Of a stretch of 64,000 nucleotides of DNA, positions 43,277 to 59,475 are shown one piece after another. Within the stretch, counting starts at the first letter, position 1, and each line of letters opens with the position of its first letter. The position numbers were made by a program, and so were the translations under genes. Source of the stretch: Spirochaetia bacterium (GTDB taxonomy: Bacteria; Spirochaetota; Spirochaetia; Sphaerochaetales; Sphaerochaetaceae); contig JAKVOU010000001.1 in NCBI GenBank assembly GCA_022482625.1, positions 2,404,784-2,468,783 on the forward strand. Direction: 5' to 3'. Below the pieces are notes generated by a model. The model ran no database searches. It had not been told where the DNA came from and saw only the letters and a list, made by a program, of their open reading frames with translations.

Positions 43277-45094
43277 TTATGGTAATTCTGGAATCATTTT
43301 TATTGGTTCAGAAAGGATGAATTCTCTTTTTAATGTTGTCCAACATATTTCTGTTTTTGCATATTCTCCTAGAGATTTACCATTTGCATGGCTAAATAGA
43401 AAATCATAAACTTCTTTACCCCATATTTTTATTTGATCAATAAAACTATCGGATATTTGCTGATTATCCCAAACCATTTTTAAATTAAGTCTATCTTTAT
43501 ATTTTTCACTGATAATTGAAAGTAAAGCAATTCTTACTCCACTTGGGCTTTGGGGACAGATATTACCTTTTAAAAGATAAAAACTTTTTCGATATACTAT
43601 ATATTGTGCTAATCGGTCTTTCACATATTGAGGATCAATTTTTTTCGACTCATCATTTAAATAGTTTTTCATGGCAACAAGACATTTTTCGCCACCTAAT
43701 GCAGCAAATTTAGGTTTCCCATCCCATGTTGCAATACACATGGACAAATCAGTTTTTTTCTGGATTCTTCGAGATGGTGGAATTATTTTTGATAGGATTC
43801 TACGGCGTTCATATGGAGATTTTGCAGTAAAATTTAAATATGTATTGAAACTACCTGCAGCTCTTTCATAGAACCATTTGCCATTACCATCTGGACAGGT
43901 AATAGTTTTAAGTACTTTTTCAAAATTAATATGAAACAATGCATGTGCCTCAAAGTCTGATTTCTTTATGGCATTCTGTAAATTGGAATATCTTGAGACA
44001 TTTGATACGAAACTATTATCTTCTTCATCCCGTTCTTTTGAATTAAAAATAATAATTTTGGCGGCAACGCGGACTTCATTTAATTGGATTGCATCATTGT
44101 CTCTTTTTGAGAAATATATTGACGCTGTAGTTTGTCCTCCATTAACGATTTGGGCTGCATGTAATTGTAATAGAATGACACCCCTTTGATTGTTTTGTAT
44201 TATTGCCTTATCTGCGACAATAACCAATCCGTTATTATATGCCATGAAACGTCTCGGCGTGGTTGTGAGAGTATCTTTAATGCCAGAATTAACCACTCTT
44301 TTTGTACTTAAAAATGATCGAACATTTGCTTCAAGTAACTGATCTCTGTATTTACTGTAGATTGAATAAATCACATTTCCTGGAATTGCAGTCAAAGCAT
44401 AATCATATTCATCATCTTTTGAACGGGGAACATAAACACAAGGAAGTCCGGATCCTAATAGTTTTTCAAAATCAATAATAATAGAATCCTGAGGTTTTCC
44501 TTCAATTGATTGTTTATACCATAAATCTGAATCAAAAATATTTATTGAGATTTCAATATTTTCAGCTTTCTGTGTGGCAAAACTTTTAATTTTTGAAACA
44601 CAGTTGGTAATTACTGTAATTCTAATATTTTTACATTCATTTCCATATTCTCTGAAAATCATGGCCAAGTCTGATTCTGACGTTCCTTTTGTTAACTGAC
44701 TTACAAAATTGCTCGTATTGTCTAGACTACAGGCAATAAAATAATAAGCAGCCGTAACCTCTTTTTGAATTTCTTGATTTGTTAGTTGAATTATATTTCC
44801 AGTGCTATCACGATAAATGCAAGTAATAATATCTATTCCCTTGGAAATATCTTCATCATCATCTAATGCATATCCAAAAATTTTAATTTTTTTATTTCTA
44901 TAATTACCTTCATAATAACAGTCTTTAAAATCTCCAACCAAAGCTCCATTTTCAGATAAGTAATTAGCAGCCATTTCGCAATATATAACTTGCTGGTAAG
45001 GGTATGGAGAAGAAGTAGAAATCATCATCTCATTACGACGTTGCGCTAGTTCTTCTCTTTGTTCTTTTAAGAAAGTTTCAAAATCAATAGCCAT
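43277..45094 (-). CDS. AIPR-family protein (abortive phage infection related)
   Basis: 605 residues. The AIPR core runs about residues 245-420: 'EANVRSFLSTKRVVNSGIK' (about 255-273), 'RRFMAYNNGLVIVAD' (about 281-295) and 'AQIVNGGQTTASIY' (about 314-327), the best-conserved blocks of the family. AIPR proteins are found in phage-defence operons and are thought to act in abortive infection; their biochemistry is unclear. It is the last gene of a six-gene minus-strand operon, 1 bp after the PD-(D/E)XK gene. The gene is AT-rich like the rest of the island. Confidence 0.9.
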   Translation of the reverse strand: MAIDFETFLKEQREELAQRRNEMMISTSSPYPYQQVIYCEMAANYLSENGALVGDFKDCYYEGNYRNKKIKIFGYALDDDEDISKGIDIITCIYRDSTGNIIQLTNQEIQKEVTAAYYFIACSLDNTSNFVSQLTKGTSESDLAMIFREYGNECKNIRITVITNCVSKIKSFATQKAENIEISINIFDSDLWYKQSIEGKPQDSIIIDFEKLLGSGLPCVYVPRSKDDEYDYALTAIPGNVIYSIYSKYRDQLLEANVRSFLSTKRVVNSGIKDTLTTTPRRFMAYNNGLVIVADKAIIQNNQRGVILLQLHAAQIVNGGQTTASIYFSKRDNDAIQLNEVRVAAKIIIFNSKERDEEDNSFVSNVSRYSNLQNAIKKSDFEAHALFHINFEKVLKTITCPDGNGKWFYERAAGSFNTYLNFTAKSPYERRRILSKIIPPSRRIQKKTDLSMCIATWDGKPKFAALGGEKCLVAMKNYLNDESKKIDPQYVKDRLAQYIVYRKSFYLLKGNICPQSPSGVRIALLSIISEKYKDRLNLKMVWDNQQISDSFIDQIKIWGKEVYDFLFSHANGKSLGEYAKTEICWTTLKREFILSEPIKMIPELP

Positions 45095-45095
45095 A

Positions 45096-46118
45096 TTATT
45101 CCTTCCAATTTAAATTTTGCATCGTAAATGGTAAATATTTAAGATTTTCTGTTAATTTTATTTCATATTTTGCTGATTCGATTCCAGCCATTGTGTTTTC
45201 ACCTGTGATACGGGGAAAATATTCATTAATTGGATATAATTTAATATCTTCTAGTGAAAACCTTTCAGAATATTCATTTGTATATAAATCAATATAACCT
45301 ATTTTTAATAATAAATTTTCAAATTTAGCTTCTACTTCAGCATTTTCTTTAATTAAATTTCTTGTTTCTTGAATTATTTCTGGCAAAGATTTTCCTAGTT
45401 TACTAATTGTAACTATCACCAATGCAAGAAATAATTGTGGAGTATCGGATGAATCCAATTGTTCGATTGAACTGATTTGGATTTTTTTCTTTCCTTTTAT
45501 ATTTGTTTTTACTTCAATTGCAAATTTGTCAAATAAAAAATCTTTTGAACTATGATTTGGACCTTGCCATCCGTTTACTATAGAAGAAACGTCTAAGTCG
45601 AATGTAAATAATTTGTTTATGATAGTTAATTCCCCCCATAAACCTAATTGTTGTTCGAAAGATAATCTATTGGAGATATCAAAAGCAAAAAAATGTTGCC
45701 ATTCCTTTATACGACTTAGTAATAAAATAGAAAGATGATAACTGCTGGTTACATTGTCGCATTCTTTGAGGAATTTATATAAATCTTCAACAACATTCAA
45801 AAAAATACTTTCTACATCTTCGTTTTTACATATCATAGCAAGCCAAACATAATTTTTGTCGAAATTTTCAGCTGATATAGGCAAAATAGTCATGCCACTT
45901 GATTCTGACATTGTTCTTTGGTCTGAAAAAGTAGAAAAAGCTAATCCCTTTAGAATTCCAATAAAAATTGTAGGCTTTGACTGGGGGAAATTTATTCCAC
46001 ATCGAATTTCATAAAGTTTTCCTGTTTCTAAACGAATATGATAATATCCAGGTTCTTGTAACTTCTTTTGTTGTATTGAGTACCAACCCTGTATAATTTG
46101 TTCTCTAAAGCTATTCAT
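45096..46118 (-). CDS. PD-(D/E)XK motif protein (DUF4420-like), predicted nuclease
   Basis: 340 residues from ATG 46118, which lies inside the Z1 stop region and is preceded by GTGAGG; an earlier ATG at 46142 lacks a site. The catalytic pattern is visible: 'GLWGELTII' (Glu, about 159-167), 'SSKDFLFD' (Asp, about 191-198), 'IEVKTN' (Glu-x-Lys, about 201-206), then 'QISSIEQL'. Together these form a PD-(D/E)XK nuclease core. In this operon class it is the likely restriction nuclease. The DNA sequence cut is unknown. Confidence 0.88.
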   Translation of the reverse strand: MNSFREQIIQGWYSIQQKKLQEPGYYHIRLETGKLYEIRCGINFPQSKPTIFIGILKGLAFSTFSDQRTMSESSGMTILPISAENFDKNYVWLAMICKNEDVESIFLNVVEDLYKFLKECDNVTSSYHLSILLLSRIKEWQHFFAFDISNRLSFEQQLGLWGELTIINKLFTFDLDVSSIVNGWQGPNHSSKDFLFDKFAIEVKTNIKGKKKIQISSIEQLDSSDTPQLFLALVIVTISKLGKSLPEIIQETRNLIKENAEVEAKFENLLLKIGYIDLYTNEYSERFSLEDIKLYPINEYFPRITGENTMAGIESAKYEIKLTENLKYLPFTMQNLNWKE

Positions 46119-48990
46119 TAATTGTATTTTCCTCACTTTCATTTGTTTCAGTCAAAGAATGGATGTATTGCTCATAGAATATATGATTTACAGAATAGGT
46201 ATGTTTGTATTTATTAGGAGTACGGTAATTTGGCATTACAATGGCAAAACCAACGAGCTGAGGTTCATTGTTTCCGTCCATTGGTATAAATGGATAGATA
46301 AGCAGAAGACACTTGTTGATATCTTCATTATCATTTTGAGTTCTTATATATCGGGCTGCAGCACCGGAAATGCTTCCTGGTTTTCTTTCTTTTTGAATTT
46401 GCTGATCAATCTTTTTTGTATAAGCTTTTGCCTCGTCATATTCTTTTTTATTGAAATCAATAAATTCATCCCATGAGTTAGTTAAGACTTTAATACTTAA
46501 AGTATCTTCTTTAGGATTATCTAGGGTCCTTCTGCTGAATTTTATTCCAGGGAATAGATTTGTTTCTTTTCTTGTTTGATCAGCTACTCCGATAATGGCA
46601 ATGTTCCATAGATTTGTAAAGCCTGATTTCTCAGAATCTTTAAGAAACTTTAAAATCGCTAATGGATTAATTGCCACTGAGTTAGGGTGAAGTTGATAAT
46701 TTTTTAAAAATGTAGCAACCTTTTCTAAGGGTATGTTTCTCCAAAGGGCAGCATTCCACTTTCTAAAATCTCTACATGGATTAATTTCAGGGTTATTTGG
46801 TAATGTTTGGATAAATTGTTTTGTTATTTCCCAATTGTGATTTTGTTTTTCTTTATCAGAAGAGAACAAAATAGTCTGTATCATCTTTCCTTCAAAATCA
46901 ACTTCTAGGTTATAGGTATGTTTTGCTTTTGCAGTTGAAGTTGCTCTTAATTTACTATAATTTCTAACTTTAAGTCCATATTCTTTTGGAGTACCTTTTC
47001 CTGTAGCATCAAATAGAATAGCAAATTCCTCCTGAAGTTCTTGTGTTGCATCTGTAATCTTGCAATAAGAGTCTATCAAATCATTTGTAGTATATATCCG
47101 ACATAAATCAAGATATTGTGGCCTATAACCAAACCATCTTCCCATTTGCATGAGGGTATCAAAAGTGTTAGAAGTCCTAATGAAATAACTTATAGTAAGC
47201 CCCTCTAGAGTAAGACCCCTTGAAAATTTATCACCACCTAGTGCAATTACTTTTAAGCCCCTATCTTTTTCCTTTTCATAATCCAATACATCGGAGGAAT
47301 TTCCATTTAACAACTTGGGATTTGCAATGTTTCCCATTACAAGAGGAAGATTTTGTTGTATCTGTTTCCAAGATGCTATAGAAGAAGTTTCGGCACCTAG
47401 TTCTTGATTGTATTGTATCCAGTTTTTAACAAAGTCTTCTTCCCATATTGTTTGTAATCTGTTTAATAATTCAATAAGTCCATCGCCATCATTGTTAATT
47501 AGCCTAATTTTACAATAGTTATCGAAATTAGAAACAACGGTTAATATTTCTTTTTGTACTTTTTGATATCTTGAAACATGGATAAGCATTGAACAATGTT
47601 TGTTTCCCTGTCCACGAAGATATCTCTGAGTACAAACAAGATAAAAAGATAAAATAGCATCTTCCAAGGACTTAGGTAGGCCAGAAACTGTATTTTGCTT
47701 ATTTGGAACCCAATCTGATTTATGTCCTAAAGGTAGCCAATCTTTTTTTTGATATTCTAGTGATCCTCTGGGGACATTTAAAGTATATGTATCATTTATG
47801 TTGCGTACAATAGGTGCTATTAAAGAATTGTTACGTTCTCCGGTTCTTTCATTATGAGTTCCTAAAAGTTTTTCGGGGCCAAAATAAACATCATTATGTT
47901 CTAATGGAACAATAAATGACTGTGGGAACAAATCTGGACCTTCTTTTTTGGTTGTTCCCTTTTCGTGAATAAAAATATTTGCAAATGGTGTTGCTGTGTA
48001 ACCAACATAAGCCGATTTAGTAAAGAAGTAGAGTAGCTGCCTAATTAATGAATTAATTCTTTTAGGATTATATTCTGAATTTGGTTCTCCTTCTTCATCA
48101 ATTGCACCTTCTCCCGTATCAACAGAAGCACTGTCAGATTCATCATCAATCATTAATAGAGGAGAATCTGAACAAACAGGGCGGTTTGTATCTTTTTCGC
48201 AATCGGTAATATAATTTCTTTTTAGCCATTTAAGTAAACTACCTAACACAGATACATTCTTTTTTACTACTAAAAGTAATGGTTGGTGAGAAGCTATGCC
48301 CATATTTTTTGCAATTTTTCGATTAAAATCGCCATGGTCTCCACGAATAGTTACATATTGAGGAGTATGGTCACGATCTACAGGATTTTCTTTTCCAACA
48401 CCTATCACTTTTATAGTATCGTCTGTATCAAAACCATCTGTAGAGTAACCTAAAAAACCTTCTTCAAGGCGAATTTGTGTCTGTTCCCGTAAGCTGTTTG
48501 TCAATCCTGCTAAAACAATGATTACACGATAGCCAACATCTGCTGCTTTACAAATCAGTCCAATATAATTTGCAGTTTTGCCAGATTGGACATTGCCTAC
48601 TACAAGGCCTCTTCTATTCCAGCAATCAGGGCGAGAAGGATTTTCTAGGAGAGAAAGAATTTCTGATGTTGATTTGTCAATTGACGTGATGTCTGTTGGT
48701 CTCAGAGAACGACCTAAGTATTTTTTATATCTTTCCCAAAGCGCCAAATTGGAAGGAATTTCCCAATCAACATGGTCGGTGTTATCCTTGAATATCATTT
48801 CTTTTCTCGACCATATTCCTGCAACTTTAATTAACTCACTGGTTACGTTACTACGATTGTCAGTTGGCGTAAAAAACGCATTAAAATAATCTATCCATTT
48901 TTGGATGTCTCCTATCGATGGGTCATTGGCTAATTCTTTTTGATATAAAATTTCAATGCTCTGACAAATTTTCGTCTCATTTTCAGTCAT
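46111..48990 (-). CDS. Z1-domain helicase-like ATPase
   Basis: 959 residues from ATG 48990 (GAGG 6 nt upstream, overlapping the GHKL stop by 8 bp). Superfamily 2-like motifs in order: P-loop 'GNVQSGKTANYIGL' (about 132-145), 'MIDDESDSAS' (Walker B-like, about 280-289), 'VGYTATPFANI' (about 329-339), 'GGDKFSRGLTLEG' (about 585-597) and 'QMGRWFGYR' (about 615-623, arginine finger motif). The Z1 domain lies in the middle and C-terminal half. It probably translocates or remodels DNA for the nuclease encoded next to it. Confidence 0.92.
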   Translation of the reverse strand: MTENETKICQSIEILYQKELANDPSIGDIQKWIDYFNAFFTPTDNRSNVTSELIKVAGIWSRKEMIFKDNTDHVDWEIPSNLALWERYKKYLGRSLRPTDITSIDKSTSEILSLLENPSRPDCWNRRGLVVGNVQSGKTANYIGLICKAADVGYRVIIVLAGLTNSLREQTQIRLEEGFLGYSTDGFDTDDTIKVIGVGKENPVDRDHTPQYVTIRGDHGDFNRKIAKNMGIASHQPLLLVVKKNVSVLGSLLKWLKRNYITDCEKDTNRPVCSDSPLLMIDDESDSASVDTGEGAIDEEGEPNSEYNPKRINSLIRQLLYFFTKSAYVGYTATPFANIFIHEKGTTKKEGPDLFPQSFIVPLEHNDVYFGPEKLLGTHNERTGERNNSLIAPIVRNINDTYTLNVPRGSLEYQKKDWLPLGHKSDWVPNKQNTVSGLPKSLEDAILSFYLVCTQRYLRGQGNKHCSMLIHVSRYQKVQKEILTVVSNFDNYCKIRLINNDGDGLIELLNRLQTIWEEDFVKNWIQYNQELGAETSSIASWKQIQQNLPLVMGNIANPKLLNGNSSDVLDYEKEKDRGLKVIALGGDKFSRGLTLEGLTISYFIRTSNTFDTLMQMGRWFGYRPQYLDLCRIYTTNDLIDSYCKITDATQELQEEFAILFDATGKGTPKEYGLKVRNYSKLRATSTAKAKHTYNLEVDFEGKMIQTILFSSDKEKQNHNWEITKQFIQTLPNNPEINPCRDFRKWNAALWRNIPLEKVATFLKNYQLHPNSVAINPLAILKFLKDSEKSGFTNLWNIAIIGVADQTRKETNLFPGIKFSRRTLDNPKEDTLSIKVLTNSWDEFIDFNKKEYDEAKAYTKKIDQQIQKERKPGSISGAAARYIRTQNDNEDINKCLLLIYPFIPMDGNNEPQLVGFAIVMPNYRTPNKYKHTYSVNHIFYEQYIHSLTETNESEENTINE

Positions 48991-50488
48991 TGTTTTCCTC
49001 ACCTTGTTTAAATAAAGCAATTGCCTTTTCTATCTGGTCTGGGTAATCATAAAGTAATTCAAATTGAGAAAGTTTTTTTGCTGCTTCAACAATATCACAA
49101 TTGTTGTTTTTCATCCAAACTTTTAGCAAATCTACAATTGCTGAGATTTTTTCATCTTTTTGCTTGTCGAAAATGGTAGTAGAAATACCATTATTCTTTT
49201 CTGATTCACTAATCATTATTTGTCGTACAGGAACGGAAAATTCAATAACTTGTAAAAGTTGTTTTACTACTTCTTTATCAGGATTTGACAATTTAGCAAA
49301 ACAATTTTTTATAAAGGGGCTTTCATTATTAATGAAATAAGAATTATTCCTTTTTATCCAAGGGTTATAGTCCTTTACAGAAACAGTATCATCATTCTTA
49401 CTATATTTGCCACGGTGTAAATATGTCTTTTTTGCTTGTTCTCGTATATCTGTTCCAATTTTCTCTAAAGTAAAGGTGCAATCCTCAGGTGGAAATGCCA
49501 TAGATTTCTTTACATCAATTTTCCAAGCAAAATCATCAGAAGTTTTTATATCTAATTGAATTCTTGCTAATGAATAGGCTTCTTCTTGAATCCAACGAGG
49601 ATTTCCTAAACCTAACCAACTCCCAGCAACAAGGAGTCGTCTATTGCGATAGATATAAAATCCTTCCTGAGAAATCCATCCTTTCTCTCCACCCATTATT
49701 TGATAGAGTTCTGGGGTTGCCACATTTTCATGAGGAGGTAAAATGCAACCTCTTACAAGGACTTTTTTACCAATTCCGATTTTTTCTTCTGGAAAATATC
49801 GTGCTGCAGGATTCTGTCTAGGAAAAGGTGACCAAGGCGATACTGAATTACCGTGTACTGTTAGTTTAAAATTATGGTCTTCAAGGAATCTATGAAAAAC
49901 CATTGCAAGATGAGATTTTACAGAATTTTCTTTTTTCATAAACGTGTCATAGGTTGTGCTTTTGGTAATGATTTTATCAAGATTTTCCCATATTACTATT
50001 GTTCCTGATTCTTTTCCTTTTAATTTTACTAGGCAACTATCGACAAGGGGAGTCGTTCCTTCAAAAATAAATAATTCCTTGCTATTCTTTAAAGATTCTA
50101 GGTCCCAGCGAAAACAATGAGTTTTTCCGTTTTTCTTTGAAACGACAGACAGAATTTTACATTGTGAGAATGAAGCTAATTTTAACCCAAGCCCAAATCG
50201 TCCTAAGTCATTTGGATTACGTAGTGCCGTTATTTCCTTTTGTGAAAAATTCAAAGCACTAATTAACTCTTCTGCATCCATTCCATTTCCATCATCAAGT
50301 ATTTGGACGGAAGGTTCAAAGCCATTGTTTCTTCCCCAAACGAAAGAAACATCGATGTTTTTTGCATTTGCAGCGATACTGTTATCAATTAGATCTGCAA
50401 TTGCCGTCTCAAGAGAATATCCGATTCCTCGTAATGCATAGAGCATAAAAGACAAAGGTGGAATAATTTCTATTTTTTGTTCATTCAC
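48983..50488 (-). CDS. GHKL-family ATPase (HSP90/MutL/MORC-like)
   Basis: About 501 residues. The start is uncertain: GTG 50488 is preferred because AGGAG lies 9 nt upstream and it repeats the 8-bp start/stop overlap of the neighbours; TTG 50512 also has AGGA. GHKL motifs: 'ETAIADLIDNSIAA' (N box, about 27-40), 'DDGNGMDAEEL' (G1, about 65-75) and 'GRFGLGLKLASF' (G2, about 96-107). The remainder is a transducer-like and family-specific domain. MORC/MutL-like ATPases with Z1 proteins are a known hallmark of predicted restriction systems; ATP-driven dimer clamping on DNA is the likely role. Confidence 0.9.
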   Translation of the reverse strand: MNEQKIEIIPPLSFMLYALRGIGYSLETAIADLIDNSIAANAKNIDVSFVWGRNNGFEPSVQILDDGNGMDAEELISALNFSQKEITALRNPNDLGRFGLGLKLASFSQCKILSVVSKKNGKTHCFRWDLESLKNSKELFIFEGTTPLVDSCLVKLKGKESGTIVIWENLDKIITKSTTYDTFMKKENSVKSHLAMVFHRFLEDHNFKLTVHGNSVSPWSPFPRQNPAARYFPEEKIGIGKKVLVRGCILPPHENVATPELYQIMGGEKGWISQEGFYIYRNRRLLVAGSWLGLGNPRWIQEEAYSLARIQLDIKTSDDFAWKIDVKKSMAFPPEDCTFTLEKIGTDIREQAKKTYLHRGKYSKNDDTVSVKDYNPWIKRNNSYFINNESPFIKNCFAKLSNPDKEVVKQLLQVIEFSVPVRQIMISESEKNNGISTTIFDKQKDEKISAIVDLLKVWMKNNNCDIVEAAKKLSQFELLYDYPDQIEKAIALFKQGEENND

Positions 50489-52454
50489 GCTTTTCATCTC
50501 CTGACCAATCAATAAAATATCCTATTAACTTATGATTTACACCCATTTTATTCTCTACTTTTTGTTGTATTTGACGAATTCGTTCCCGTGTTACATTAAA
50601 TGTTTGTCCTATTTCTTCAAGTGTTTCTTCTTTAGTAGTATCAAGTCCATATCGTAAATTAACAATGTTTCTTTTGTCATACACCGCAAGGAGTTTTTTT
50701 TCAATTGTATGCAATATGTTTTTATCCAAATCTGAGATGATTTGTCTTTCCATTTTCCTATTGTCAGATAACTTGTCTGGTGCAATATCCTCATAAGAAA
50801 TAAAGTCAGAGTAATATAAACTAAGTAATTGAGAGGCTATGGGCGATAATGAATGTTTTTTGCAAAATTTAGATGCTGCTAGGTCAATTGTTTTTTTTGT
50901 CGGATTTTTATTTTTCAAATATTTTTTGAATTGATATAATAGAATACCAAAATGTACGGGAAAACTTACTGTTTGGGAATCATTATAGTTATTTTCATCT
51001 AAGGCTCTTCTTTGTACTTGGTCAATCCAGATAATTGCATAGGTCGCAAAACTTGCATTATTATTTAAATCAAATTTTTCTATTGCACGGTATAATCCTT
51101 GGATACCTATTTGAAATAAATCATCCCTATATGTGGAAGCATAACTAGATGTGCGCCAGTAAACTAAATGAATGTTAATCATCATAATTAATTCATCTGT
51201 TTCTTGAAGTTTTTGTATCAGTTGATGTATTTGCATAAATATTTCTTTATTATGGAAATCTGATGACTCTATGAGTACTTCCCAGAATAAAGCAGTAGGA
51301 CCTCCATTTTTAAAGGAAGAAAAGGTTTCTTGTTTGTCTATGAAAATTTCCAAAGCCTTTTTGTCAAAATTTAACGAATTAATGAAAAAGGATGATACCT
51401 TAAAATTTGAGCCAATATTATTTCCTTTTGAAATAGATAATAATATGAAAGAAATTTTTTCTTTTACAGCTAACCATACACAGTCATTTGTTTCTACATA
51501 ATCGAGCAATTGGGAACGAATCTTTTTCCTATCATTGAAAAGTTTTTCGGTGACCCTTTTTTTATCTTTGTTTATAGTTAGGTTATATCCTTTCTTTTGT
51601 AATTTTTTATGAATTTGATTAATACAAATGTACATGGGTTGTGTATCAATTGTTTTTGAATCGATGCTTTCTTGAATAAAATTCTCTTCATTGTTTGTAA
51701 GAAATAACTGTCTATTTTCGCGGGACTTATTTTTTACTTCTTCTTCAAGAATTGTATCATGTAAATCTTCATATAAAAAATCTGAGCTATTTGGGTTCCA
51801 CTTTGATATAATTTTTTCAAGTGTATCATCATGTGGGATTCCCATTTCATATAAAATCATTAATGTTTTATAACAATTTTCTTGACTGCAATTTTGCATG
51901 ATTGCAAAATCTTTTGAAGATACAAAACCTTTTCTTAATCCTTTTCTAAGTATTGTAACTATTTCTTTAGGATAACCCAATTGCGGTAGTTCAAGTTCTT
52001 CAAAATTCCAGTCAATTTCTAAATTATCAAAATTTACAGGGATGTCACAAGAAAGGGTTTTATTTTCTTCGACCAATTGGGAAATAAGGTCTGCATCCTG
52101 CTTTTTTATTATTGGCTCTTCTTCTGGTTCAAAATCAAAGGGTAAATCATTTGCATCATTATTGGTGTTTTGGAGCGGGGTAGAAAGAAGTGCTGCCTTG
52201 ACAAGAGGTGAAAAAGCATAATCACAAGCAGTTTTTCCTTCTTGGTTTAAAATATTGATGTCAGCACCATGATTCAATAAATATGCACAAACCTGTGCAT
52301 CGTCAGTCATAGCGGCTACCATTAAAGGTGTCATACCCCTTTTGTTTTTCTGATTTATATCTATATCACTATTTTCAATGACTTCTTGGATTTTTTCTAG
52401 GTCTTTATGCCTGATTGCAATAAATAAAAAGGGAGACCAAGAAGAATTATTCAC
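50481..52454 (-). CDS. Ankyrin-repeat / sigma-70-like fusion protein
   Basis: 657 residues. Residues about 5-90 form two to three ankyrin repeats ('GMTPLMVAAMTDDAQVCAYL', 'NHGADINILNQEGKTA'). An acidic linker leads to about 163-208, which resembles sigma region 1.1 ('LRKGLRKGFVSSKDF', 'MILYEMGIP'). About 421-485 is sigma region 2 ('DLFQIGIQGLYRAIEKFD', 'SFATYAIIWIDQVQRRA'), then 'VSFPVHFG' as in region 3.0, and about 575-637 is region 4 ('NLRYGLDTTKEETLEEIG', 'VTRERIRQIQQKV'). It overlaps both neighbours by 8 bp. It probably directs RNA polymerase, with the ankyrin part sensing a partner protein. Confidence 0.9.
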   Translation of the reverse strand: MNNSSWSPFLFIAIRHKDLEKIQEVIENSDIDINQKNKRGMTPLMVAAMTDDAQVCAYLLNHGADINILNQEGKTACDYAFSPLVKAALLSTPLQNTNNDANDLPFDFEPEEEPIIKKQDADLISQLVEENKTLSCDIPVNFDNLEIDWNFEELELPQLGYPKEIVTILRKGLRKGFVSSKDFAIMQNCSQENCYKTLMILYEMGIPHDDTLEKIISKWNPNSSDFLYEDLHDTILEEEVKNKSRENRQLFLTNNEENFIQESIDSKTIDTQPMYICINQIHKKLQKKGYNLTINKDKKRVTEKLFNDRKKIRSQLLDYVETNDCVWLAVKEKISFILLSISKGNNIGSNFKVSSFFINSLNFDKKALEIFIDKQETFSSFKNGGPTALFWEVLIESSDFHNKEIFMQIHQLIQKLQETDELIMMINIHLVYWRTSSYASTYRDDLFQIGIQGLYRAIEKFDLNNNASFATYAIIWIDQVQRRALDENNYNDSQTVSFPVHFGILLYQFKKYLKNKNPTKKTIDLAASKFCKKHSLSPIASQLLSLYYSDFISYEDIAPDKLSDNRKMERQIISDLDKNILHTIEKKLLAVYDKRNIVNLRYGLDTTKEETLEEIGQTFNVTRERIRQIQQKVENKMGVNHKLIGYFIDWSGDEKRE

Positions 52455-53686
52455 CTATTTTCTCTCTCTTATTTGAAGTAATAATTGCTTGTATCTTTGT
52501 TGCTGTTTCCTGAATGGCAGGAATAACTACGCTATTTCCTAACTGTCTGTAAGAGCAACCAATACCTTCTTTCATTATAAAACATTTAGGATCATATCCC
52601 ATTAATTGCATGATTTCTGTTAACAACAATTTGCGAGGAGTAACATTTTTGCCTAAATTTACAAGACAATCTGCCCCATCTTTATAATAACGTGCAGAGA
52701 TTGTCCATGCTTTTTGTCCTTCTGGGATAGGATAGGGTAAAAGACAATACCCAAAACCATTATTTCTTGTTTTGTGTTTTTGCTTATGGTTTTGTAAAGC
52801 TTTCCAAGTGCCTAAAGACAATTGTTTGTCTTGGCATGTCAAGTCAATAATATCTCGTAATTGGGGTACTTCATATTTTTGGTTGTTTGGTACTATAGGT
52901 ATTGAGAATTCACTTAAAGCTATTTGTTTTGGATCCCATCCGACGAAAAAAAACTCTTTTCCTTTGCTGGGGAACCCAAGCAGAAGCATCGACTACTGTA
53001 ATGGAGTACAGATAACCAAGTTCTTCAAAAGAGTCTTTGATTACTTGGATTGTTTTACCATTATTATGGGATAAAATGTTTTTTACATTTTCAAGCATAA
53101 ACATTTTCGGTCTTTTTTCTGCTAAGATACGTTTGATTTCAAAAAAGAGCGTTCCTTGTGTTGGGTCATCAAAGCCATGAGGCCTATGCATAGATTCTTT
53201 TTTTGATACACCGGCAATAGAAAAGGGTTGGCAAGGAAAACCTCCGCAAAGGACATCATGATTAGGGATTTCTCTTGCTGGAATATTTCGAATGTTTCCA
53301 TATGGAATAATTCCATAATTATCATTATAAGTTTTTTTTGCTTTTTCATCCCATTCTGAAGAAAATACACAACGACCTCCGACATTCTGAAAGGCTTGAC
53401 GAAAGCCCCCTATACCAGCAAAAAGATCTATAAATGTAAATGCATTGTGTTTGTTTAAAGGATAAGGTACTGGTTCTTTTTCATAATCAATTGATTGAAT
53501 AATTATTTTAATTTCTTGCCATAATTTTTGAGAAATTAAGGGTGGCTTTATAGAACGTAAATGAAGAGCACTTGATACAATCGCAGGAAGTTCTGGAAGT
53601 ATTTCATCTTTTATATCGCATTTATTTTTTATTGTTGTAACAATTTCATCAAATTTCATTTTATTTGTTATTTTAGTATAATACAA
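52447..53686 (-). pseudogene. DNA cytosine-5 methyltransferase, frameshifted at an 8-base homopolymer
   Basis: The first frame (53686-52910) has motif I 'FIDLFAGIGGFRQAF' (about 85-99), catalytic motif IV 'GGFPCQPFS' (about 148-156), 'MLENVKN' and motif VIII 'PQQRKRVFF'. It leaves frame in eight A (52946-52953; T on the coding strand). The second frame supplies 'VGWDPKQ', motif IX 'LTEIMQLMGYDP' and motif X 'RQLGNSVVIPAI' and ends at 52447. Seven bases would give an intact 412-residue enzyme. TTG 53686 is the likely start, with GAGG 5 nt upstream. It should protect host DNA from the linked nuclease. Phase variation, decay and sequencing error are all possible. Confidence 0.9.
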
Positions 53687-53711: not shown

Positions 53712-53769
53712 TCTTTCTAAGAAAGATACATTGACTAAATTATGTCAATCTTGAGAATTCTTTAGAATT
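53712..53769. promoter_or_regulatory. Three stacked inverted repeats upstream of the defence operon
   Basis: TCTTTC-N3-GAAAGA (53712-53726), TTGAC-N8-GTCAA (53731-53748) and AATTCT-N2-AGAATT (53756-53769) fill most of the 90-bp gap before the methyltransferase. Such clustering suggests control by one or more dimeric regulators. A TATAAT at 53696-53701 abuts the ribosome site and is too close to be a normal -10. Confidence 0.5.
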
Positions 53770-55189: not shown

Positions 55190-55535
55190 AAAAATGTTTA
55201 TCTTAAAAGCGGTAGCGCGAGCTTGATATAGATTTTTTCGTAAGAACTTGACTTTAAGTAATCTGTTTGTTAAGTCTTTACTTATGAAACGATTGTTTGA
55301 GAAATGTTTGGTTTTTTGGTATGTCAGCTTTATCAGCAAGGGGTAGCTGTTTTCTGTTGCTGTCAGTATCTGGGGAAGCTTCCTTGGAGGATAGGTCTAT
55401 ATGCGTGTGTCCTATGGATTAGCGTACAAACTGATAGAAAATCAAGTGATTGGATATTGTGTGAAATATGTGTAGTTTATGTTTTATTATTGAAAGAAAA
55501 TGAATGTAGTTTCGCTAATTAGCGTAATTATTTAA
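55190..55535. other. AT-rich intergenic stretch before the first IS1634-like copy
   Basis: 346 bases without a convincing gene, terminator or promoter. CGCTAATTAGCG (55513-55524) is a short perfect palindrome near the IS insertion point. The last seven bases, TATTTAA, are the target duplication of the first IS copy. Confidence 0.6.
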
Positions 55536-57468
55536 TCAGAGTTTTGCAATGCAGGTTTAGTACAAATCCCTCAATCCTTCTTTTTACCGCTTGTTTTCGG
55601 CTTCTTCCTGGAACCGGGCCTTGAACCCTTGGGGATCTCCAGCCCGAACTCGTCGAAGATGTCCACCTGCTTCCCGACGAACTCCGAGACCTTCGGGGAC
55701 CTGCCCCTGAGCTGGACAAGCCTGACAGACCGCATCTCGTCAAGTACGTCCCACGGAGTCGCGAACCGCTTCCTGAAACCATCGCTCGTGGAGAAATAGC
55801 GGGCATGGAGGTAACAGTTGAGGATGAGTGCGACGAACTGGAAGAAGACCCTTCCGTCGGTACTGGGCTCCGTCCAGGTCCGGAGCCTCCTTCCTCCCTG
55901 CCAGCCCTTCAGATACATGAAAGCCTTCTCCTGGGAATCCCGCATCCGGTATTTGGAAAGGACCCACCCAAGCGGATACTCCCGTGCATCCATGTTCGTG
56001 CAGACGATCGCGAAGAACCCGCAGCGTTTCCTGCATCCCGCAATCTTCTCCTCGTCCCTCGAGCAGGAGATGACCGTCCCGTCACCATCGGTCTCGACGG
56101 CAAAGTGCCTGCGGAATTTCTTCAGGAGCCTCTCATCCGGCGCCGGGCCGCCCTCCAGGTGACCGAGGAGGCTCTCCTCCTCGTCAAGCAGCTCCACGGT
56201 GAGCGCCTTGTCCTCTGCGCCTCTGGCCTCGGGATCGAAGAAGAGACAGAGCCTCTGCGGAACCGACGTCCCATGGCCTTTCCCTTCGTTTTCCCTGTAG
56301 CAATAGGGGTACTCGTAATCCTTGGCATAGCAGTCGTGGTCCCTGAGGAACACTCCCCTGGCCGTGATGCTCCCGCTTTCGGAAAGGGCCTCTCCGATGC
56401 ATTTCGTGATCTTTGCGTCACCGGTCTTCGCCATGAATATGGCCCTGATCCCCTCCGGCACGAGGAGATCCAGGTTTTCCTTGCTGAGATACGCCCTGTC
56501 CAGGATGAGGCCGTAGTCACTGAATCCCGCACTCTTGAGTTCCTCCAGCAATAGCCTCAGCGTCCTGGAGTCGGGGATGTTTCCGGGAAGCTTCCGGTAA
56601 TGGGCGGGAAGGCCGGTTTCCATGTCGTACATGACAAGCAGCCCCACCTGCCTTGCGAGGTCGTGTTCCTTGTTCTTCCCCCATCGGGAATCCGCCAGGT
56701 CCCTTGCATGGCTGGATATGCTGGTGCTGTCTATCCCGAACCAGTCGGCAGCCCCGCCCTCGCGTGAGGTGCGGAGTGCCATGAACCGGTCGGCCTGCTC
56801 CTTGGTGACCGACTGCGACAGCCTCGTTATCCTGCTGGAGTCGATCCCTGCGGAAGGATACCACTGGGTTTTTGACGACGACTCGAGCCTGCTGCAGCTG
56901 CGTCCGTAGATGAGCCGGAAGTAGGCGATGGTGAGGATCTCGGCGGTACGCCCGCGACCGAAGACGGTCTCGAGATCCTCCTTCAGCCCGCAGTCGCAGG
57001 CAAGCAGGTCAAGCATGAGGCTGTCGCCGTAGAGCAGGTACCGATCCTCACCCTCGTATGGGGGACCGTCGTCGGGAACCCCTGTACGGTCATACCGGCG
57101 GGACAGGTCCCATGCCTCGGGGAAGAGGAACCTTTCCTTCTCATCGGAAGAAAGAAGCCTGAAGCGGATGTTGGGGATGAAGAGGAAGGGTTCGTCAAGC
57201 TTGCCCCAGACGGTGATGTCGGGGACACGGATGCCCTTCCTGTTGATTTTGGGATCTGTGGTTATCGCATACCTATGGCCGTTTGAACGGAATGCCTTCA
57301 TCCGGTACTTTGCGTTCGGATCCTTCTTCCTGCCCATGCCTGGCCTCCTTTATATGTACTAAAGTTTAATACAAATAAAGAAAAGATTCAAGGCACATAA
57401 CTGCAATCAGACAAGGATATTACATGGTTTTCAGCAATTCATACTAAACCTGTATTGCAAAACTCTGA
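55536..57468. mobile_element. IS1634-like insertion sequence, copy 1 (1933 bp)
   Basis: Terminal inverted repeats of about 27 bp begin TCAGAGTTTTGCAAT and differ at one base. The element is flanked by a TATTTAA direct repeat (55529-55535 and 57469-57475). It holds one minus-strand transposase and is GC-rich against an AT-rich flank. It is identical by eye to copy 2. Confidence 0.93.
55571..57337 (-). CDS. IS1634-family-like transposase, copy 1
   Basis: 588 residues, intact. DDE landmarks: first Asp in 'WFGIDSTSISSHA' (about 201), second in 'LILDRAYLSKENL' (about 285), and Y-R-E-K-type 'YRMRDSQEKAFMYLKG' (about 470-485). The N-terminus is basic, as is the C-terminal tail ('SRKKPKTSGKKKD'). 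AAAGGAGG precedes the ATG. Large size and the beta-rich insert between the second Asp and Glu fit IS1634. Confidence 0.9.
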   Translation of the reverse strand: MGRKKDPNAKYRMKAFRSNGHRYAITTDPKINRKGIRVPDITVWGKLDEPFLFIPNIRFRLLSSDEKERFLFPEAWDLSRRYDRTGVPDDGPPYEGEDRYLLYGDSLMLDLLACDCGLKEDLETVFGRGRTAEILTIAYFRLIYGRSCSRLESSSKTQWYPSAGIDSSRITRLSQSVTKEQADRFMALRTSREGGAADWFGIDSTSISSHARDLADSRWGKNKEHDLARQVGLLVMYDMETGLPAHYRKLPGNIPDSRTLRLLLEELKSAGFSDYGLILDRAYLSKENLDLLVPEGIRAIFMAKTGDAKITKCIGEALSESGSITARGVFLRDHDCYAKDYEYPYCYRENEGKGHGTSVPQRLCLFFDPEARGAEDKALTVELLDEEESLLGHLEGGPAPDERLLKKFRRHFAVETDGDGTVISCSRDEEKIAGCRKRCGFFAIVCTNMDAREYPLGWVLSKYRMRDSQEKAFMYLKGWQGGRRLRTWTEPSTDGRVFFQFVALILNCYLHARYFSTSDGFRKRFATPWDVLDEMRSVRLVQLRGRSPKVSEFVGKQVDIFDEFGLEIPKGSRPGSRKKPKTSGKKKD

Positions 57469-57503
57469 TATTTAATGAAGTACTACCTTTATTATCCTTT
57501 ACA
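57469..57503. other. 35-bp spacer between the two IS copies
   Basis: It carries the right-hand TATTTAA duplication of copy 1 and ends in TTTACA, the left-hand duplication of copy 2. No other feature is seen. Confidence 0.8.
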
Positions 57504-59436
57504 TCAGAGTTTTGCAATGCAGGTTTAGTACAAATCCCTCAATCCTTCTTTTTACCGCTTGTTTTCGGCTTCTTCCTGGAACCGGGCCTTGAACCCTTGG
57601 GGATCTCCAGCCCGAACTCGTCGAAGATGTCCACCTGCTTCCCGACGAACTCCGAGACCTTCGGGGACCTGCCCCTGAGCTGGACAAGCCTGACAGACCG
57701 CATCTCGTCAAGTACGTCCCACGGAGTCGCGAACCGCTTCCTGAAACCATCGCTCGTGGAGAAATAGCGGGCATGGAGGTAACAGTTGAGGATGAGTGCG
57801 ACGAACTGGAAGAAGACCCTTCCGTCGGTACTGGGCTCCGTCCAGGTCCGGAGCCTCCTTCCTCCCTGCCAGCCCTTCAGATACATGAAAGCCTTCTCCT
57901 GGGAATCCCGCATCCGGTATTTGGAAAGGACCCACCCAAGCGGATACTCCCGTGCATCCATGTTCGTGCAGACGATCGCGAAGAACCCGCAGCGTTTCCT
58001 GCATCCCGCAATCTTCTCCTCGTCCCTCGAGCAGGAGATGACCGTCCCGTCACCATCGGTCTCGACGGCAAAGTGCCTGCGGAATTTCTTCAGGAGCCTC
58101 TCATCCGGCGCCGGGCCGCCCTCCAGGTGACCGAGGAGGCTCTCCTCCTCGTCAAGCAGCTCCACGGTGAGCGCCTTGTCCTCTGCGCCTCTGGCCTCGG
58201 GATCGAAGAAGAGACAGAGCCTCTGCGGAACCGACGTCCCATGGCCTTTCCCTTCGTTTTCCCTGTAGCAATAGGGGTACTCGTAATCCTTGGCATAGCA
58301 GTCGTGGTCCCTGAGGAACACTCCCCTGGCCGTGATGCTCCCGCTTTCGGAAAGGGCCTCTCCGATGCATTTCGTGATCTTTGCGTCACCGGTCTTCGCC
58401 ATGAATATGGCCCTGATCCCCTCCGGCACGAGGAGATCCAGGTTTTCCTTGCTGAGATACGCCCTGTCCAGGATGAGGCCGTAGTCACTGAATCCCGCAC
58501 TCTTGAGTTCCTCCAGCAATAGCCTCAGCGTCCTGGAGTCGGGGATGTTTCCGGGAAGCTTCCGGTAATGGGCGGGAAGGCCGGTTTCCATGTCGTACAT
58601 GACAAGCAGCCCCACCTGCCTTGCGAGGTCGTGTTCCTTGTTCTTCCCCCATCGGGAATCCGCCAGGTCCCTTGCATGGCTGGATATGCTGGTGCTGTCT
58701 ATCCCGAACCAGTCGGCAGCCCCGCCCTCGCGTGAGGTGCGGAGTGCCATGAACCGGTCGGCCTGCTCCTTGGTGACCGACTGCGACAGCCTCGTTATCC
58801 TGCTGGAGTCGATCCCTGCGGAAGGATACCACTGGGTTTTTGACGACGACTCGAGCCTGCTGCAGCTGCGTCCGTAGATGAGCCGGAAGTAGGCGATGGT
58901 GAGGATCTCGGCGGTACGCCCGCGACCGAAGACGGTCTCGAGATCCTCCTTCAGCCCGCAGTCGCAGGCAAGCAGGTCAAGCATGAGGCTGTCGCCGTAG
59001 AGCAGGTACCGATCCTCACCCTCGTATGGGGGACCGTCGTCGGGAACCCCTGTACGGTCATACCGGCGGGACAGGTCCCATGCCTCGGGGAAGAGGAACC
59101 TTTCCTTCTCATCGGAAGAAAGAAGCCTGAAGCGGATGTTGGGGATGAAGAGGAAGGGTTCGTCAAGCTTGCCCCAGACGGTGATGTCGGGGACACGGAT
59201 GCCCTTCCTGTTGATTTTGGGATCTGTGGTTATCGCATACCTATGGCCGTTTGAACGGAATGCCTTCATCCGGTACTTTGCGTTCGGATCCTTCTTCCTG
59301 CCCATGCCTGGCCTCCTTTATATGTACTAAAGTTTAATACAAATAAAGAAAAGATTCAAGGCACATAACTGCAATCAGACAAGGATATTACATGGTTTTC
59401 AGCAATTCATACTAAACCTGTATTGCAAAACTCTGA
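57504..59436. mobile_element. IS1634-like insertion sequence, copy 2 (1933 bp)
   Basis: Same length, orientation and ends as copy 1, displaced by 1968 bp. Its own target duplication is TTTACA (57498-57503 and 59437-59442; TTTACA follows CTCTGA). Different duplications at the two copies show independent insertions rather than one tandem duplication. Confidence 0.93.
57539..59305 (-). CDS. IS1634-family-like transposase, copy 2
   Basis: 588 residues, the same protein as the transposase at 55571-57337 as far as can be compared by eye, with the same start context and catalytic motifs. Lack of any difference means one of the two insertions is recent. Confidence 0.9.
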   Translation of the reverse strand: MGRKKDPNAKYRMKAFRSNGHRYAITTDPKINRKGIRVPDITVWGKLDEPFLFIPNIRFRLLSSDEKERFLFPEAWDLSRRYDRTGVPDDGPPYEGEDRYLLYGDSLMLDLLACDCGLKEDLETVFGRGRTAEILTIAYFRLIYGRSCSRLESSSKTQWYPSAGIDSSRITRLSQSVTKEQADRFMALRTSREGGAADWFGIDSTSISSHARDLADSRWGKNKEHDLARQVGLLVMYDMETGLPAHYRKLPGNIPDSRTLRLLLEELKSAGFSDYGLILDRAYLSKENLDLLVPEGIRAIFMAKTGDAKITKCIGEALSESGSITARGVFLRDHDCYAKDYEYPYCYRENEGKGHGTSVPQRLCLFFDPEARGAEDKALTVELLDEEESLLGHLEGGPAPDERLLKKFRRHFAVETDGDGTVISCSRDEEKIAGCRKRCGFFAIVCTNMDAREYPLGWVLSKYRMRDSQEKAFMYLKGWQGGRRLRTWTEPSTDGRVFFQFVALILNCYLHARYFSTSDGFRKRFATPWDVLDEMRSVRLVQLRGRSPKVSEFVGKQVDIFDEFGLEIPKGSRPGSRKKPKTSGKKKD

Positions 59437-59475
59437 TTTACAAAAATGTGTATAAATTTTATGCTTGAGGTCCGA

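Follow-up and report, generated by a model that had tools for sequence, protein, structure and literature searches.

A probable MZA-type operon with a frame-split C5-cytosine methyltransferase gene in a Spirochaetia bacterium

Gene content and organization of the island

The window analysed here is a stretch of 64,000 nucleotides from contig JAKVOU010000001.1 of the Spirochaetia bacterium assembly GCA_022482625.1 (positions 2,404,784 to 2,468,783, forward strand). At positions 43277-53686 its minus strand carries ORFs of the six families named in the original prediction, all borne out by profile matches. The first family in the direction of transcription, a C5-cytosine DNA methyltransferase, is present as two ORFs in different frames. 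The N-terminal part, with motifs I-VIII (52910..53686; PF00145 positions 1-159, E 1.2e-60), has a TTG start at 53686 and an alternative ATG at 53659, and the C-terminal part in the other frame contains the target-recognition region and motifs IX and X (52447..52989; PF00145 positions 156-323, E 7e-10). The two frames join in a run of eight T on the minus strand at 52946..52953, directly after motif VIII (QxRxR). The island hence has seven ORFs, and the earlier description of a complete set of six genes was wrong because the methyltransferase is split.

The methyltransferase is followed by a gene with a GTG start for an MzaA-like protein with N-terminal ankyrin repeats and C-terminal sigma70 regions (50481..52454; Ank_2 6e-12, Sigma70_r4 5e-10, Sigma70_r2 7e-8). 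Next come mzaB, also with a GTG start, encoding a GHKL (MutL/MORC-like) ATPase (48983..50488; HATPase_c_3 3e-32), mzaC, encoding a superfamily-II helicase-like ATPase with a Z1 domain (46111..48990; Z1 6.5e-71), mzaD, encoding a DUF4420 PD-(D/E)XK nuclease (45096..46118; DUF4420 1.7e-59), and mzaE, encoding an AIPR protein with an AIPR_N domain (43277..45094; AIPR 1e-65, AIPR_N 6e-23). Four junctions are 8-bp overlaps, namely methyltransferase/sigma at 52447-52454 (GTGAATAA), sigma/GHKL at 50481-50488 (GTGAATGA, with the GTG start), GHKL/Z1 at 48983-48990 (ATGACTGA) and Z1/DUF4420 at 46111-46118 (ATGAATAG), while DUF4420 and AIPR are separated by a 1-bp gap, exactly as had been noted before. 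Conserved 8-bp coupling as a feature of the family was ruled out, since in the related operon of genome G005 (locus L019) the genes at the first two junctions stand 8 and 11 bp apart. The earlier proposal that coupling enforces strict stoichiometry is not supported.

The AT-richness claimed for the island was confirmed: its genes have a GC content of 0.28-0.34 (GC3 0.19-0.24), against 0.49 for the flanking BMP gene and 0.46 for the flanking hydrolase gene. A promoter scan stayed at chance level (44 matches vs 48.7 +/- 6.2 in shuffles), a result counted against the MZA reading set out below. Upstream of the methyltransferase start, at 53730-53747, lies an inverted repeat TTGAC-N8-GTCAA, a possible operator.

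Assignment to the MZA system

NCBIfam models matched the last five proteins as MzaA, MzaB, MzaC, MzaD and MzaE, in A-B-C-D-E order and all within one operon, with E-values beyond chance (5e-49, 2e-119, 7e-241, 9e-56 and 2e-136, respectively), and PADLOC assigned the same five names. None of the five reached its NCBIfam equivalog cut-off (167.7 of 800 bits for MzaA, 399 of 850 for MzaB, 801.6 of 1500 for MzaC, 189.3 of 420 for MzaD and 455.7 of 1050 for MzaE), which counts against the assignment; scores below the cut-off point to a diverged member of MZA or a sister of it, and not to an equivalog. As judged from its sequence, the island is probably a laterally acquired MZA-type (mzaABCDE) anti-phage operon accompanied by a C5-cytosine methyltransferase.

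The first description of mzaABCDE is credited to Gao et al. 2020. The anti-phage system is named in PMC9523054, and the class of clusters combining GHKL, Z1, nuclease and methylase genes is, as the original prediction stated, the one predicted by Iyer, Abhiman and Aravind in 2008 (PMC2292703). The type of cluster is thus already described, and its design is ordinary save for a split methyltransferase beside intact-looking DNA-attacking genes. We found neither a mechanism for MZA nor a description of an ankyrin-sigma protein in the literature searched, with most subscription journals outside the reach of the search.

Conservation across related loci

The survey drew on genome contigs (best 80 of 548 relatives), viral contigs (17 loci), four plasmid loci, further genome stretches and the window. 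It yielded 106 loci with Z1, 90 of them with the full GHKL-Z1-DUF4420-AIPR core (among the matches listed); in the other 16, the core was incomplete or the spacing rule failed. Unless stated otherwise, a gene was scored as missing where a contig end cuts the locus. Among the matches listed, a C5-methyltransferase is present in 86 of the 90 full-core loci (counted in favour of the MZA reading) and a sigma70 protein in 37. Of the four full-core loci lacking a methyltransferase, three are truncated on one side by the end of the contig (L084 is not). In 6 of the 37 loci with a sigma gene, one of them the window, a methyltransferase gene on the same strand lies no more than 300 bp upstream of the sigma gene or core (again among the matches listed). 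The expectation that the neighbourhood is conserved across genomes was thus upheld in the gene order compared. The sigma gene, by contrast, had been taken for an extension particular to this island; it is none, because the last five genes correspond to the published mzaABCDE and this gene to its MzaA.

A Z1 tree was built from 103 rows, the published MZA reference sequence not being among them. The window falls within a clade of 37 rows (support 99), 33 of which have the sigma gene, a result counted in favour of the MZA reading. The four rows without it (L026, L027, L046 and L106) are from contigs that end before its place, so that the sigma gene marks this Z1 clade among the matches listed. 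The neighbours of the window in the tree include a Spirochaetales MAG. The nearest full operon among the matches listed is the orthologous six-gene operon of G005 (L019), which has an intact methyltransferase; it was also counted in favour of the MZA reading.

Two further observations were made in the survey. In a Burkholderia peredens locus (L057:13766-15535), the AIPR gene is split into ORFs of 438 and 145 aa. In addition, 17 IMG/VR loci (L106, L117 and 15 others), on contigs classed as viral, contain Z1 relatives, most of them beside GHKL-DUF4420-AIPR, and L117 also has a sigma gene.

Genomic setting and a second system

The BMP-ABC transporter operon downstream of the island has the same order in G001, G003 and G005, counted in favour of the MZA reading. 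No mza gene adjoins it in the stretches examined of these three genomes; in G005 about 65 kb separate the mza and BMP operons, and the three listed genomes of the same genus (G001, G002 and G003) gave no Z1 match. This pattern of genomic location is in keeping with lateral acquisition. A clean empty site could not be demonstrated, as G001-G003 contain no good match to the upstream hydrolase, and there are no direct repeats longer than 10 bp at the island borders.

IS elements do lie nearby, as first noted, but they do not form the borders of the island. Two identical copies of 1935 bp with inverted ends (DDE_Tnp_1, 588 aa; 55535-57469 and 57503-59437) are arranged in tandem, 33 bp apart, behind the hydrolase gene and with the nearest about 1.8 kb upstream of the island; the pair is either a true tandem or an assembly duplication. 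On the other side, the minus strand at 43163-43010 contains a promoter-like site (TTGACA-17-TACGAT) and, after it, a terminator-like hairpin of 11 pairs with T9 just before the BMP gene. The segment looks like an attenuated leader upstream of that gene, and it had no match to an Rfam family.

The same genome encodes a second GHKL-Z1-DUF4420-AIPR-methyltransferase system without a sigma gene, about 30 kb before the window (C1:2365854-2374734; L018:10855-19735). Its Z1 and GHKL proteins are 34-35% identical to those of the island, and its Z1 belongs to a distant clade with viral contigs, closest to L118 and L119 among the matches listed. The genome thus has three C5-methyltransferase loci: the island, C1:1538855 and the second system.

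The split methyltransferase

Compared with the nearest intact copy, the 402-aa methyltransferase of G005 (L019), the N-half is 52.7% and the C-half 46% identical. The two halves keep 63 of 72 and 30 of 38 columns, respectively, that are invariant in four relatives, so the remainder of the gene has not decayed. It is a serious possibility, though somewhat short of probable, that the frame break is a homopolymer consensus or assembly error and that the living cell has one intact enzyme. Besides the conservation of both halves, the position of the break in an eight-T run argues for an error, as does the fact that the window's methyltransferase is the only split one in the survey (among the matches listed). 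Against it stands the finding that long intact ORFs in 484 kb of this genome contain 31 eight-base runs well away from their ends. When the genome was scanned for runs at which one frame gives way to another, five eight-base candidates came up, including the T8 of the window; on inspection, three either mark the boundary of a gene or lie antisense to an intact ORF of greater length, and the remaining one is an A8 joining two frames of a transposase (L143:11939-13134) that we take to be IS630-like, a type in which a frame change is usual. Given the intact runs and the transposase as the sole other break, runs of this length appear to be read correctly in the assembly in general.

The break may instead be real and the methyltransferase off, through phase variation or as a fresh pseudogene, in which case the MZA half would have no need for the mark and would act on another trigger in an abortive-infection-like manner. 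We consider this conceivable but doubtful. Intact-looking MzaB-E next to a broken frame would fit it, as would the two further C5-methyltransferase genes of the genome, whereas the linkage of a C5-methyltransferase in nearly all full-core loci (among the matches listed) argues that the mark matters. A conserved switch also finds no place here: the longest run at the T8 site is 6 in the 27 relatives with a motif VIII fitting our search pattern, of which at least one (L065) looks like a chance match, and a conserved phase-variation tract was accordingly ruled out.

By analogy with known split enzymes, the two ORFs could also be made as separate chains that together form an active methyltransferase. 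M.AquI is split after motif VIII into a chain with motifs I-VIII and a second one with IX-X, and complementation between M.SssI fragments works best if the second fragment begins downstream of motif VIII and ahead of the recognition domain (PMC3404938). The break directly after motif VIII is thus at a position where split C5-methyltransferases can work, and the second ORF has an ATG (52989) upstream of the break. Inspection, however, found no Shine-Dalgarno-like sequence before this ATG, the split recurs in no other surveyed locus (among the matches listed), and there is no RNA structure at T8 (z +2.16), which also rules out RNA-stimulated recoding there. We therefore regard a two-chain enzyme as unlikely.

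Integrity of MzaB-MzaE

Columns were taken as conserved if conserved in at least 95% of relatives. MzaB (GHKL) keeps 58 of 61 such columns, MzaC (Z1) 114 of 117, MzaD (DUF4420) 18 of 18, among them D193, E202 and K204, and MzaE (AIPR) 36 of 38. MzaC has a Walker A motif, DDE and DTLMQMGRWFG. Judging by these residues, the restriction half (MzaB-E) looks intact. Decay of the whole island into a non-functional remnant is accordingly quite improbable: one gene is broken and the MzaC branch is long (0.96), but four genes keep nearly all conserved columns, the base composition of the island is uniform, and there is no frame break outside the methyltransferase.

The AlphaFold model of MzaE is good (pLDDT 87). 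Its residues 34-199 resemble PD-(D/E)XK nucleases (1y88, Z 8.8, rmsd 3.2 over 114 residues), with further structure matches to HamA (Z 7.8), FokI (7.7) and MspJI (7.3), although a Z of about 8 can arise by chance; we take 1y88 and HamA to have the PD-(D/E)XK fold. In the middle domain, considered as a candidate ParB/Srx NTPase, residues 226-375 resemble ParB-like domains (ParB-N, Z 5.7; SspE, Z 4.2). Foldseek gave no match for MzaE at E 0.001 or better, and the MzaE and MzaC profiles had no match among PDB sequences. The nuclease-like part has a conserved D88 (30/34) and no conserved (E/D)xK pair, so MzaE may not cut. Both the nuclease-like and the ParB-like folds may serve as leads. A relationship of AIPR to DUF262 proteins was also considered: a weak structure hint was left without support by profile comparison (probability 0.2%).

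MzaA, an ankyrin-sigma70 protein

Among the 40 sigma-type proteins of the survey (among the matches listed; domain threshold E 0.001), Sigma70 region 4 was detected in 39, region 2 in 32 and Ank_2 in 28. Positions 212-717 of a profile built from 30 MzaA align with PDB RpoD chains over nearly their whole length (E 1e-154), so that the MzaA family has the appearance of a housekeeping-type sigma factor to which ankyrin repeats have been fused. In the window MzaA, Sigma70_r2 and r4 exceed the cut-off, and R623, E624, R627 and Q628, in region-4 recognition, are invariant. Region 2 keeps one of two tryptophans (FATYAIIWIDQ vs FSTYATWWIRQ in the genome's own RpoD), a pair that serves -10 melting. The AlphaFold model is poor overall (pLDDT 69), but its residues 4-94 match ankyrin structures (best Z 15.8, rmsd 1.8 over 91 residues). 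At E 1e-30, MzaA-like proteins were found in no genome but its own among 139 genomes of the order, although the G005 orthologue likewise escapes this cut-off.

MzaA as a mimic of the host's own RpoD is unsupported. The two are 27% identical, the lowest of the 30 MzaA rows, the other 29 having 31-57% (among the matches listed), and the bit score to RpoD is below that of 28 of the 29 other rows, with only L050, an incomplete match, lower still (among the matches listed).

Proposed mechanism and its implications

In the most likely mechanism, the methyltransferase would mark host DNA as self, and MzaA would control when or where the complex acts, via RNA polymerase or promoter DNA. MzaB, as a clamp-type ATPase, and MzaC would load on unmarked DNA and remodel or translocate it, supplying ATP-driven clamping together with translocation or remodelling in the way put forward for MORC operons (PMC2292703). 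MzaD would cut the unmarked DNA, MzaE may be a second nuclease-fold or sensor subunit, and the six products could form one complex.

MzaA might alternatively be a trigger and not a regulator: as an ankyrin-fused copy of a housekeeping sigma factor, it would sit on RNA polymerase or promoters, sense takeover of transcription by a phage, for example through phage anti-sigma proteins, and release the GHKL-Z1-nuclease complex. We find this improbable. Were MzaA such a trigger, the system could spare host DNA without an active methyltransferase, a situation that this genome may exemplify.

Returning to methylation gating, the nature of the split matters for the question of whether self-methylation is required in MZA. 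Should the native methyltransferase truly be off, such gating is in doubt, and an inactive methyltransferase next to an intact nuclease half would provide a natural experiment that distinguishes restriction-modification from another kind of trigger in MZA. If the break is a sequence error or the enzyme has two chains, the classical restriction-modification reading stands. The survey further shows that the core is accompanied by a C5-methyltransferase (86/90 loci among the matches listed), while the published name covers A-E only, and that ankyrin repeats fused to sigma70 are common in MzaA (Ank_2 in 28/40, among the matches listed).

Comparison with known systems

The island resembles mzaABCDE in that five proteins match the Mza families in the same order, the sigma70 protein MzaA included, and differs from it in scores under the equivalog cut-offs, in the C5-methyltransferase gene at the head of the operon and in an MzaA that is the least similar to RpoD by identity among the 30 rows compared. 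It shares the core, AIPR and a MORC-like gene with types I, II-A and II-B of the Z1/PD-(D/E)XK/cytosine-methyltransferase defence systems, which are described as putative (Nat Commun 2022, PMC9523054). According to the same source, mzaA occurs in only a few of them; the second system of this genome has the sigma-less layout given there. With M.AquI the methyltransferase shares two ORFs and a split downstream of motif VIII, but the split in M.AquI lies inside the variable region and M.AquI has been shown to be active (PMC3404938), whereas the split in the window looks accidental. The MORC/paraMORC restriction-modification operons (PMC2292703) differ in that a word find for 'sigma' gave nothing in the main text describing them. 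They have a GHKL ATPase, an SF2 helicase, a restriction-endonuclease-fold nuclease and a C5-methylase in common with the island, where a C5-methyltransferase is linked, in two frames and not in a single intact one, the PD-(D/E)XK catalytic residues are present in MzaD, and the MzaC sequence DTLMQMGRWFG fits the helicase motif DThhQXuRhFG given for these operons (PMC2292703).
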